Part shown: in pieces, positions 34,596-37,412 of the stretch
How positions within the stretch are numbered: position 1 is the first letter of the stretch
Layout: every line of letters starts with the position of its first letter
NCBI GenBank assembly: GCA_029882975.1
Contig: JAOUJW010000044.1
Coordinates: forward strand, 1 to 40,647
Direction of reading: 5' to 3'
Length of the DNA stretch: 40,647 nt
DNA from: Gammaproteobacteria bacterium
Lineage (GTDB): Bacteria; Pseudomonadota; Gammaproteobacteria; SZUA-152
Program-made: the position numbers and the translations under genes
Notes under the pieces: generated by a model
Told to the model about the DNA's origin: nothing
Database searches by the model: none
Seen by the model: only the letters and a program-made list of their open reading frames with translations

Positions 34596-36956
34596 CTAAC
34601 CGGCCCGCACAATGGGTTTGTACCCCCAGGGGGAGTTCAAAATCCATTGTTTTAATTCCTTGGCTTTTAAAGGTTTGCACATATAGTGGCCTTGGGCGAC
34701 ATCACAACCCAGTTCCAACAGCATTTCCCAAACGGTTTTGTTATCCACGCCTTCGGCAATGACGCTCAGTCCCATGTTGTGGGCTAAATCAATGGTAGAT
34801 CGGACAATAACGGCATCACTGCCATCTTTGTGCATATCCATAACAAACGATTTGTCGATTTTAATATCCGATACCGGCAGTTTCTTCAAATAGGCCAGAG
34901 ACGAGTATCCGGTGCCAAAATCGTCCACGGATATTCTTACACCTTGGTGGTGCAATTTTGTCAGCATCTCCATGGCATGGTCCGGGTTCGCCATGACCGC
35001 ACTTTCTGTCAGCTCCAGCGATAACCATTCCGGTCCAATACCTGTTTGCGCCAATGTATTACTGACCGCATCCAGAATGGTGCTGTCTCCCAGACTGCGG
35101 GCGGAGAGATTAATTGCTACATGGATTTCGATACTTTCGCTGTGCCAGAGGGCGCAGTCAGCCAAGGCCTGTTCCAAGACCCAACAGGTCATGGCTTGTA
35201 CCGCTCCTGTCTGTTCCGCCATGGGTACAAATTCATCTGGCGTTAAATAACCGCGTTGGGGATGGTCCCAGCGTATGAGTGCTTCCACTCCGGTGGTACG
35301 GCCGCTGCGTGTATCAATCTTGGGTTGATATAGCAGTTCCAGTTGATTTTTTTCAATGGCTTCGTATAGGTCTGCTTCCAAATTCAACTGAATCAGACTG
35401 TGCTTGTCCAAATAGCTTTCGTAGAATGTGTAACCTTCTCGGTTGTGTTTTGCATGGTACATAGCCATATCGGCTCTTTGCATGAGTTGGTGATTATCGG
35501 TGCCGTCATGTGGGCAACGAACAATTCCGATGCTGGTGCAAACCGTGAGGGTGTGATTGTCTATGTTGATGGGTTCATTAATGGTTTCCAGGATCTTGCG
35601 GGCAATGATTTCCGCTGCGGTCACATCGTCCACGCCTGTGAGTATTGCTGCAAACTCATCGCCGCCCAGTCGTGCGATGGTGTCGGATTTGCGCACGGAT
35701 TCCTGCAAGCGTCCGGCGACTTCCTGTAATAACTGATCACCGATATGATGTCCCAGGGTGTCATTAACAAATTTAAATCGGTCCAGATCCAGCATCAATA
35801 ACAAAAAGGGCGTGCCTTGTCGCTTAGCAGTGAGGGTGGATTGTTCCAGGCGGTCGTAAAACAGGGCTCTGTTGGGTAAGTTGGTGAGCGAGTCGGTAAA
35901 GGCCATGGTTTCCAGGGTTTGGTACAAAACATACAGCTCGCTGCTCATATCGTTAAAATCTTCAGCCAGTTCGGATATTTCCGTATTTCCGCTCACGGTA
36001 ACTTTCTCACCTAAGTGGGTTTTGTCCTGGCGTACCCGGCGCAGCTGCTGAGTTAGATTGGCTAAGGGGTTTATGGCGGTTCTTTGCAATAAGATCAGCG
36101 CCAACATGGCGGTCACCAGTGTAGTCAGGCTGGCAGTAATGAGTATGATGGAACGGGTCTTTTCCAGCTTGGTATGTAAGCCGGTAATGTCAGAAGCGAA
36201 GGAAAATGTATACAAGGGTTCTCCCTTGTGAGTGGTTAAAGTGTAATTGGAAAAAATAATATTTTCCAAGGTGTGATTGGAAGGCCATAATGGAGATTTG
36301 TAGGCGGCACGTTCCATGCTCGGACGGCGTAATGTCAGTGGCATACCCAAAGCGCGTTCCACTTTGCTTAAGTTATTGGTGGGATCGGATACCACCATTA
36401 AATAGCCCTGAATGCGAATTCCGCCCACCGGTACAATGACGCTGATATGAGGTGTGTTATTGTTGGAGCATAGTCTCGACATGGTTTTAAGCCGGTGCGC
36501 TCCGGTGCGTATTTTGGCATCGGCGATCACGCCGGGACAGGGTATATTAGCTGCATTAAAGCCGGGCTCGCCTTCACTGGAGAGTCCGACCAGGTTAAAC
36601 TCCGAATCGAAGGCGAATAACTTTTCCAATTTGATAATGGACAGAGTGACAAAATAGCGGTGGAATTGTTCATTTAGTTGAGTTTGGATAATACTACTGT
36701 CTTTGGCCTGTAATGCCGCACGAAATGGTTGGTTGGTTTGAATGGATAAGCCCAGTTCGGCGGTTTTTTGGATGGTTTGATCCAGAATGTCATCCACTTT
36801 GATTTTTGCCAGGCGTTCAAACGCTTCCAGCTGATTTTCCAGAGCCAGCTTACGGTAGATTTCTCCCGTCACCATCGCCAGTACCATACCCAGCAATCCC
36901 ATGGCCAAAACAGTGAGGCCGAGGCTGGTACGCATGGAAGAGCGAATTTTAATCAT
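34596..36956 (-). CDS. Membrane-bound GGDEF-EAL protein (c-di-GMP turnover) with periplasmic sensor domain and HAMP
   Basis: The 786-residue protein has a first membrane segment (about residues 10-30), a periplasmic sensor region (about 31-268), a second membrane segment (about 270-292), a HAMP linker, a GGDEF domain (GGDEF at 431-435) and an EAL domain (EAL at 558-560). The cyclase motif is intact, and RKSD at 422-425 is a product-inhibition I-site. The phosphodiesterase motifs also look intact: ELTESA, DDFGTGYSSLAYLKKLP, DIKIDKSFV. Both activities are therefore possible, and the net sign cannot be told from sequence. It begins nine bases after the rhodanese gene, so the two form an operon. 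Confidence 0.94.
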   Translation of the reverse strand: MIKIRSSMRTSLGLTVLAMGLLGMVLAMVTGEIYRKLALENQLEAFERLAKIKVDDILDQTIQKTAELGLSIQTNQPFRAALQAKDSSIIQTQLNEQFHRYFVTLSIIKLEKLFAFDSEFNLVGLSSEGEPGFNAANIPCPGVIADAKIRTGAHRLKTMSRLCSNNNTPHISVIVPVGGIRIQGYLMVVSDPTNNLSKVERALGMPLTLRRPSMERAAYKSPLWPSNHTLENIIFSNYTLTTHKGEPLYTFSFASDITGLHTKLEKTRSIILITASLTTLVTAMLALILLQRTAINPLANLTQQLRRVRQDKTHLGEKVTVSGNTEISELAEDFNDMSSELYVLYQTLETMAFTDSLTNLPNRALFYDRLEQSTLTAKRQGTPFLLLMLDLDRFKFVNDTLGHHIGDQLLQEVAGRLQESVRKSDTIARLGGDEFAAILTGVDDVTAAEIIARKILETINEPINIDNHTLTVCTSIGIVRCPHDGTDNHQLMQRADMAMYHAKHNREGYTFYESYLDKHSLIQLNLEADLYEAIEKNQLELLYQPKIDTRSGRTTGVEALIRWDHPQRGYLTPDEFVPMAEQTGAVQAMTCWVLEQALADCALWHSESIEIHVAINLSARSLGDSTILDAVSNTLAQTGIGPEWLSLELTESAVMANPDHAMEMLTKLHHQGVRISVDDFGTGYSSLAYLKKLPVSDIKIDKSFVMDMHKDGSDAVIVRSTIDLAHNMGLSVIAEGVDNKTVWEMLLELGCDVAQGHYMCKPLKAKELKQWILNSPWGYKPIVRAG

Positions 36957-36965
36957 TATTTTGCG

Positions 36966-37412
36966 CTATTCGTGTAGGTAGGGATATCCTTTCGCCAACC
37001 ACTCCTCAAACCCCCCTCTAAACCAGTATGTATTTTTATACCCGCAGTCTATCGCAATCTTGACAGCTTTTGCACTGCGCCCACACTTAATACCATTACA
37101 ATAAAACAGAGCCGCCTGTGTTTTCTTCGGTATCACTTTAGCCAGGCTTTGGCAGTTGGTGTCGATATCTGGCAAACTCACCGAACCTTCCAAGTATCCT
37201 TGCTTGCGGTCCCCTGGAATACGAGAGTCCACCACGATAACATCTGGGTTAGAATTGACCAATTCGATAAATTCCTCAGCAGAAACCTTTACGGTTCCCT
37301 TAATATTATCAGGTGAATTGTCGGATTGGGGTTTCGCCGGCACCGTAGTGGCAGCAATGGTCAAAACCATGGCAAATAGCGCTATCACTCTGAATTTATT
37401 TGAAAAAATCAT
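36966..37412 (-). CDS. Exported single-domain rhodanese-like protein
   Basis: A 148-residue protein with a signal peptide (VIALFAMVLTIAATTVPA, cleavage near residue 26) and one rhodanese domain (DVIVVDSRIPGDRKQGYLEG). The active loop is CNGIKCGRS, with C105, C110 and R112. This loop is longer than the classic sulfurtransferase loop and has a second Cys, so it may handle sulfane sulfur or a disulfide in the periplasm. It is the first gene of a unit with the GGDEF-EAL protein, whose sensor domain is in the same compartment. A link between sulfur or redox state and c-di-GMP is inference. Confidence 0.9.
   Translation of the reverse strand: MIFSNKFRVIALFAMVLTIAATTVPAKPQSDNSPDNIKGTVKVSAEEFIELVNSNPDVIVVDSRIPGDRKQGYLEGSVSLPDIDTNCQSLAKVIPKKTQAALFYCNGIKCGRSAKAVKIAIDCGYKNTYWFRGGFEEWLAKGYPYLHE

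Follow-up and report, generated by a model that had tools for sequence, protein, structure and literature searches.

An exported rhodanese paired with membrane receptors of exchangeable output in Gammaproteobacteria

The rhodanese gene and its membrane partner

We analysed a stretch of 40,647 nucleotides from a gammaproteobacterium of the lineage SZUA-152 (GenBank assembly GCA_029882975.1, contig JAOUJW010000044.1), referred to below, at its full length, as the window. On its minus strand, where all features given here are located, a gene for an exported rhodanese is followed after 9 bases (36957..36965) by a gene for a membrane GGDEF-EAL protein, i.e. a protein of cyclic di-GMP (c-di-GMP) turnover. 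A first-pass annotation of the window had described an exported rhodanese with a two-cysteine loop at this distance from a GGDEF-EAL gene, and the list of open reading frames (ORFs), the loop and Pfam agree with that description. In this work we ask what the pair of genes is and how widely it is kept.

The rhodanese (36966..37412, ATG start) has 148 residues and a single domain that matches PF00581 with 43 bits, passing the curated Pfam cut-off of 22.2; PF00581 is the only Pfam family found at an expectation value (E) ≤ 0.1. The predicted model has a predicted local distance difference test score (pLDDT) of 93.0, and the solved folds closest to it are rhodaneses and sulfurtransferases. The protein is of the sulfurtransferase type, its activity being predicted. 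Residues 1–26 (37335..37412) resemble a signal peptide with cleavage after VPA, as judged by eye, and by a crude score over 12 residues the N-terminus has a hydrophobic run in 96 of the 97 family members scored. The putative active-site loop CNGIKCGRS spans residues 105–113 (37074..37100) from C105, at the position of the catalytic cysteine of rhodaneses, through C110 to S113. C105 and C110 are invariant in sequence sets A1, A2 and A5, and the family keeps both the sulfurtransferase loop and the invariant residues around it. Two further cysteines, Cys87 (37152..37154) and Cys123 (37044..37046), co-vary with cysteines of the partner.

The partner (34596..36956, ATG start) has 786 residues. An N-terminal sensor region (about residues 31–262; 36171..36866), which contains Cys140 (36537..36539) and Cys163 (36468..36470), is followed by a HAMP domain (residues 290–341; 35934..36089; PF00672, 34.7 bits), a GGDEF domain (residues 352–506; 35439..35903; PF00990, 167.7 bits) and an EAL domain (residues 528–762; 34671..35375; PF00563, 263.1 bits). 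The GGDEF domain has its GGDEF motif and RKSD (RxxD), which we take to be the inhibitory-site motif, and the EAL domain has the EAL and DDFGTG motifs. Active-site motifs of both c-di-GMP domains are thus present, and both enzyme activities are predicted.

Residues 1–345 of the partner were modelled with 83 sequences at a mean pLDDT of 93.9. Since the sensor lies in the model between two long helices with hydrophobic stretches (residues 8–73 and 258–310), it should face the periplasm, the compartment in which the first-pass annotation had also placed it together with the rhodanese. In a Foldseek search KinD and LuxQ came first among solved single domains. VIA-align ranked the periplasmic domain of LuxQ at the top (3c38; Z 14.0, root-mean-square deviation (rmsd) 3.8 over 193 aligned residues, about 10% identity), followed by CitA, KinD and the CHASE4 domain of PA2072 (8z6n; Z 12.1, rmsd 3.8). 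According to the predicted model, the sensor has a LuxQ-like periplasmic double-PAS (dCache) fold. Residues of about 30–260 match no Pfam family at E ≤ 0.1, LuxQ, dCache_3 (PF14827) and CHASE4 (PF05228) included, and the dCache_3 cut-off is passed by the distant partners L023 and L028. Sequence comparison with the PDB gave no relative for the sensor proper: all 14 matches at E ≤ 0.1 fall in the transmembrane and HAMP part, and none is LuxQ.

Conservation of the pair and exchange of its outputs

Scanning one genome per species gave 176 relatives, and the loci of the best 80 (L061–L140; genomes of our other samples included) were fetched. In 71 of these 80 the next gene downstream on the same strand codes for a transducer with a homologous sensor. 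By comparison, for only 2 of the 25 other rhodanese ORFs of the window genome is there a transducer gene on the same strand up to 500 bases away in either direction; both of these are c-di-GMP genes. Partner domains were found with single-sequence phmmer, from which weak domains may escape, in the control as well. The pairing thus exceeds chance (71 of the 78 assessable relatives against 2 of 25 control ORFs). No fusion of the rhodanese to a sensor or output domain was detected in the 80 loci (phmmer, E ≤ 1e-4). The median distance between the two genes is 19 bases in 99 distinct pairs, measured from the first possible start codons.

A similar picture emerged from 275 genomes drawn evenly from the class. 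They contain 45 strong rhodanese matches (E ≤ 1e-27) in 36 genomes, and in 37 of the 45 a transducer gene follows on the same strand, at most 500 bases downstream. For two matches the transducer lies on the upstream side (G280 and one of the two matches of G232), and one match is at a contig edge (G003). One locus of G232 (L199, contig C6) has a single chemoreceptor gene between two rhodanese genes, all on the same strand. Both rhodanese and sensor occur in 34 of the 275 genomes, the rhodanese only in 2, the sensor only in 7 and neither in 232; this count is favoured because the sensor profile (A4) was made from rhodanese-adjacent sensors, some of them from the same 275 genomes. With a single-sequence search in 57 genomes (the window's own and relatives) the corresponding numbers are 21, 2, 3 and 31, and in many of these genomes rhodanese and sensor are neighbours. 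The first-pass annotation had proposed counting co-occurrence in other genomes, with the lack of conserved pairing as refutation, and these counts answer the point in favour of the pair. The tallies 37/2/5/1, 34/2/7/232, 21/2/3/31 and, for soxB below, 29/7/87/152 were counted by hand from the search tables.

The trees of the two proteins also match. From 110 pairs, 99 distinct ones were obtained, and 93 were used after dropping six with short partners (L061, L114, L115, L116, L128, L200), four of which show the sensor cysteine pair and two of which are too short to tell. Distances in the rhodanese and sensor trees agree with rho 0.79 for the 93 pairs and 0.55 for 80 core pairs, where the highest values in 500 shuffles were 0.21 and 0.19, respectively; the trees are quick ones, and the sensor tree was flagged for long branches.

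In contrast to the pair itself, the output is not constant. Among the 71 partners there are 28 with GGDEF and EAL, 20 with GGDEF, 10 chemoreceptors, 7 histidine kinases with or without a receiver and 6 without a label, where loci ending at 1500 bases may be labelled GGDEF although an EAL domain follows. Pfam confirms the output types on example partners. In the sensor tree of the 93 pairs, at least 21 changes are needed for the four named outputs, a number raised by loci of limited length for switches between GGDEF and GGDEF-EAL, with the other switches unaffected. Kinases and chemoreceptors require seven changes each, of which the starred branches force four and five, respectively. As the pair is kept while the output changes, the conserved unit is rhodanese plus sensor, not rhodanese plus c-di-GMP. 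A link of the rhodanese to c-di-GMP alone was therefore rejected, histidine kinases and chemoreceptors having been swapped in. The first-pass annotation had proposed that the pair could sense sulfane sulfur or thiol state and set the c-di-GMP level. This reading is partly supported, by the conserved pairing, the common compartment and the enrichment of soxB described below, and has to be corrected in so far as the putative coupling extends to outputs other than c-di-GMP. Upstream of the rhodanese gene of locus L107, at a distance of 200 bases, is a gene for a receiver-GGDEF protein. As this rhodanese is paired with a kinase downstream, signalling through the kinase form might likewise lead to c-di-GMP.

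The surroundings of the pair are less well kept. Past the GGDEF-EAL gene of the window are convergent dnaQ and rnhA genes, and upstream of the rhodanese gene there is a same-strand gene for an NhaD-like transporter (CitMHS family in Pfam); these names were given by eye from the translations. A wider conserved operon was rejected, as the NhaD-like gene is found at only 4 of the 80 loci, 71 of which have at least 800 bases of upstream sequence. In the window's own family there are six loci (L006, L008, L009, L013, L018, L019) with the rhodanese at the dnaQ locus and no GGDEF-EAL gene between, and a seventh locus (L010) ends at a contig edge. Six of the seven genomes concerned (G003, G007, G009, G010, G013, G015) have the sensor on a kinase elsewhere; in the seventh (G005, incomplete) the sensor was not found. 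Of the lone rhodaneses at the dnaQ locus, the four with scores (L006, L008, L018, L019) keep all four cysteines, and the sensor cysteine pair is kept in all 12 sensor kinases that have no rhodanese next to them. It is therefore possible that rhodanese and sensor act from separate loci in those genomes.

Several other rhodanese loci were noted during the searches. In G016 (L059, contig C23) the rhodanese ORF by a GGDEF-EAL gene has just 95 residues and matches weakly (1e-11); it is possibly a decayed copy. Downstream of a rhodanese from the distant lineage (L190) there is no transducer gene but one whose product, as judged by eye, is a PhnD-like periplasmic binding protein. Two rhodanese-domain proteins of G000 with 352 and 344 residues (L152, contig C2 near 256341; L154, contig C42 near 8037) have similar N-termini, show no signal peptide by eye and are encoded 216 bases from a GGDEF/EAL gene and 151 bases from a GGDEF gene, respectively, on the same strand. 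They form a second kind of rhodanese/c-di-GMP neighbourhood. Members of another rhodanese family with the loop FCNGWWCGQ (L207, L208 and L212; 207–226 residues) are encoded 74, 517 and 48 bases, respectively, upstream of chemoreceptor genes, so the pairing of rhodaneses with chemoreceptors may be wider or may have arisen more than once.

Cysteines and sulfur metabolism

The first-pass annotation had pointed out the two-cysteine loop of the rhodanese. In the window genome there are 32 rhodanese-domain matches in 26 ORFs, and the CX4C loop is also present in 10 of the 25 other rhodanese ORFs. The loop was therefore rejected as a hallmark. Four rhodaneses of 268–278 residues in the same genome (L148, L150, L153, L155) have a loop of the form YCNGxxCMKS or YCNGxxCYKS and no transducer within 1 kb.

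As judged from the alignments, the telling cysteines are C87 and C123 of the rhodanese together with C140 and C163 of the sensor, none of them named in the first-pass annotation, rather than the CX4C loop. C140 and C163 are found in the aligned columns of all 60 members of the window's sensor lineage and in none of the 23 members of the two others. The loop cysteines C105 and C110 are present in 93 of 93 paired rhodaneses, the pairs having been chosen by the CX4C loop and those without it left out. The four other cysteines are all present in 63 of the 93 pairs and all absent in 30, without exception. Their presence tracks the sensor lineage and not the output.

The window genome has soxB and dsrA and, with its many rhodanese matches, the organism is very likely a sulfur oxidiser. 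Its fetched relatives are Gammaproteobacteria. The minority of the 80 that carry names include Thiobacillus, Thiohalophilus thiocyanatoxydans, Sulfuricaulis, Chromatiaceae, Ectothiorhodospiraceae and Thiotrichaceae, and also one Afipia and one metagenome-assembled genome of Methylococcales. In the 275 genomes, soxB is found in 29 of the 36 carriers of the rhodanese and in 87 of the 239 others (152 without it; Fisher p 8e-7, kinship being handled by even sampling only). The gene was called at E ≤ 1e-50 in 116 genomes, 113 of which are above the curated cut-off. Our results suggest that carriers of the pair, many of which are sulfur oxidisers, share a means of sensing the redox or sulfur state on the outer side of the cell membrane.

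A proposed two-part receptor, its alternatives and known systems

We propose that the two genes encode a conserved two-part receptor with the exported rhodanese as its input protein. A periplasmic compound such as sulfane sulfur, polysulfide or thiosulfate would either donate sulfur to the rhodanese or oxidise it. In its charged or oxidised state the rhodanese would contact the periplasmic, LuxQ-like part of its membrane partner and hand this state over, after which the sensor domain would move the HAMP and output domains. In the window this would set the c-di-GMP level; in relatives it would act on a kinase or a chemoreceptor. In the window clade the hand-over would probably take place through cysteines, from C105/C110 and C87/C123 of the rhodanese to C140/C163 of the sensor by thiol-disulfide or persulfide exchange. 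The analysis shows that the pair is conserved, that outputs are exchanged and that the cysteines co-vary, and it gives the sensor fold from a predicted model; we infer that the proteins touch, by which chemistry and with which ligand they act, and in which direction c-di-GMP would change. For the proposal as a whole, with the cysteines as its route here, we see the chances as evenly balanced. A stricter version is doubtful, though still worth considering: a sulfur relay in which C105/C110 read extracellular sulfane sulfur or redox state and pass it via C87/C123 to C140/C163, so that shared inputs serve several outputs. The cysteine form would then drive c-di-GMP enzymes and kinases, and the form without the extra cysteines mostly chemoreceptors.

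A number of observations weigh against the two-part receptor or against parts of it. Another gene follows the rhodanese in 7 of the 78 assessable relatives (two further loci end at a contig edge), five of the 45 class matches stand without a neighbouring transducer (G171, G059:C75, G114, G250, G172:C34), and seven of the 275 genomes carry the sensor without a strong rhodanese match. Pairing across the whole phylum was rejected: the family is rare there, since in an even draw of 249 genomes 2 of the 248 besides that of the window match at E ≤ 1e-25, and both matches (L213, L214) have no adjacent transducer in flanks of about 1.5 kb. soxB is missing from 7 of the 36 carriers. Partners of the 30 pairs without sensor cysteines are 22 chemoreceptors, 2 GGDEF proteins with a chemoreceptor-type sensor, 1 kinase of the distant lineage and 5 proteins without an output label. 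Because the rhodanese is kept in these pairs, cysteine transfer is not the sole mode, and we rejected it as a universal one. The concordance of the cysteines also reflects few events, two changes on the rhodanese tree and three on the sensor tree, and common descent therefore explains part of it. Finally, a C140–C163 disulfide could be purely structural.

In the main rival, a small molecule such as sulfite, sulfide or thiocyanate is produced or consumed by the rhodanese and bound by the dCache pocket of the partner, perhaps via R150 and R155, so that no contact between the proteins is necessary. We consider this unlikely. It was kept because R150 and R155 are common to the cysteine lineage (fractions of 0.88 and 0.80 in 60 sequences) and to the lineage of chemoreceptor type (1.00 for each in 16 sequences); it also fits the lineages without sensor cysteines, and the sensor resembles domains of the dCache and CitA kinds, which bind ligands. 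In the third, distant lineage (7 sequences), however, R150 is not conserved and R155 is at 0.57. Moreover, a diffusible product needs neither one upstream partner gene for each receptor nor an all-or-none match of cysteines, and the best fold match, LuxQ, is driven by a protein.

Two further explanations appear improbable to us, and to the same degree. The rhodanese could be a folding or disulfide-care factor for a receptor that itself senses something unrelated. The invariance of the disulfide-like sensor pair in its lineage (60 of 60) would agree with such a role, as would the seven genomes with a sensor and no strong rhodanese match. The rhodanese is nevertheless kept beside cysteine-free sensors (30 of 93), it retains the sulfurtransferase loop and the invariant residues near it, and soxB is enriched in carriers. 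Alternatively, the same two-part receptor could respond to cyanide, arsenic, selenium or general periplasmic redox state, as in YfiR-YfiN. The 7 of 36 carriers that lack soxB would agree with this, but the named relatives are largely sulfur bacteria and the enrichment of soxB speaks for sulfur. That the genes merely share a regulon or a location without acting together is highly improbable: it can draw on just the rule that adjacency is no proof of function, and opposed to it are the pairing in 37 of 45 matches of the even class sample, the constancy of the pair under swapped outputs, the co-varying cysteines, the matching trees and a neighbouring transducer in just 2 of 25 other rhodanese ORFs.

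To our knowledge, it is poorly known how sulfur oxidisers sense extracytoplasmic reduced sulfur for attachment or chemotaxis. Under the stricter relay, sulfur oxidisers would share one sense of sulfur that serves attachment, gene control and movement. An enzyme that forms the periplasmic part of many receptors of differing output would be a testable answer to the question. Each such rhodanese would mark a receptor that is likely to read the same signal, which gives a bioinformatic handle, and the cysteine match between two separate proteins singles out key residues for mutation.

Parts of this arrangement are known from other systems. In yeast Orp1-Yap1, a thiol enzyme senses the oxidant and passes the oxidation on to a signalling protein. 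The proposed hand-over in the window pair would be alike, but Orp1-Yap1 consists of a cytosolic peroxidase and a transcription factor and the window pair of a rhodanese and a membrane receptor. IsmP (PA2072), presumably a GGDEF-EAL protein, belongs to the membrane proteins of c-di-GMP signalling and resembles the modelled window sensor in its periplasmic fold (8z6n, Z 12.1). It differs in that its own CHASE4 domain binds iron, and the accessible part of the report names no rhodanese (PMC10904736), whereas the window sensor has a rhodanese partner. In YfiBNR, as far as the accessible parts of two papers tell, the periplasmic cysteine-bearing protein YfiR controls the membrane diguanylate cyclase YfiN and answers reductive stress (PMC4992967, PMC4887326). 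This combination of a periplasmic cysteine-bearing protein with a membrane c-di-GMP protein resembles the window pair. Those parts, however, name no rhodanese domain for YfiR (PMC4992967, PMC4887326), and the periplasmic partner in the window is not of the YfiR family, PF00581 being its only match at E ≤ 0.1. The NCBIfam model of YfiN reaches 198.8 of 325 bits in the window protein, below the cut-off and in the HAMP-GGDEF part only. SqrR of Rhodobacter capsulatus is persulfide-responsive and its loss alters the c-di-GMP level; it is, unlike the window pair, a transcription factor, for which the accessible text names no periplasmic partner or receptor (PMC9143464). Rhodanese, GGDEF and chemoreceptor (MCP) genes are mentioned separately in the accessible part of another paper (PMC9237845). 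A full-text literature search on rhodanese or sulfane sulfur and signalling, covering titles and abstract openings with the subscription literature mostly outside, gave no description of such a pairing, whether the partner of the rhodanese is a c-di-GMP enzyme, a kinase or a chemoreceptor, in line with the first-pass annotation, which knew of no such system.

The closest parallel is LuxP-LuxQ, the receptor for autoinducer-2 in Vibrio. LuxQ is a receptor controlled by the separate periplasmic protein LuxP, luxP adjoins luxQ, and structures of the complex are present in the PDB according to entry titles. Both systems combine a periplasmic protein with a membrane receptor, and the fold of the window sensor is nearest to the periplasmic domain of LuxQ. 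The differences are that the window partner is a PF00581 rhodanese and not a periplasmic binding protein, that the window sensor does not match the LuxQ sequence family, and that sensors of the window type drive c-di-GMP enzymes, kinases and chemoreceptors. As far as the predicted model tells, the window pair appears to be built like LuxPQ with a rhodanese in the place of LuxP, the likeness lying in architecture and fold rather than in family membership. What appears to be new here is a rhodanese as the periplasmic accessory protein of a LuxQ-like receptor whose outputs are exchangeable.

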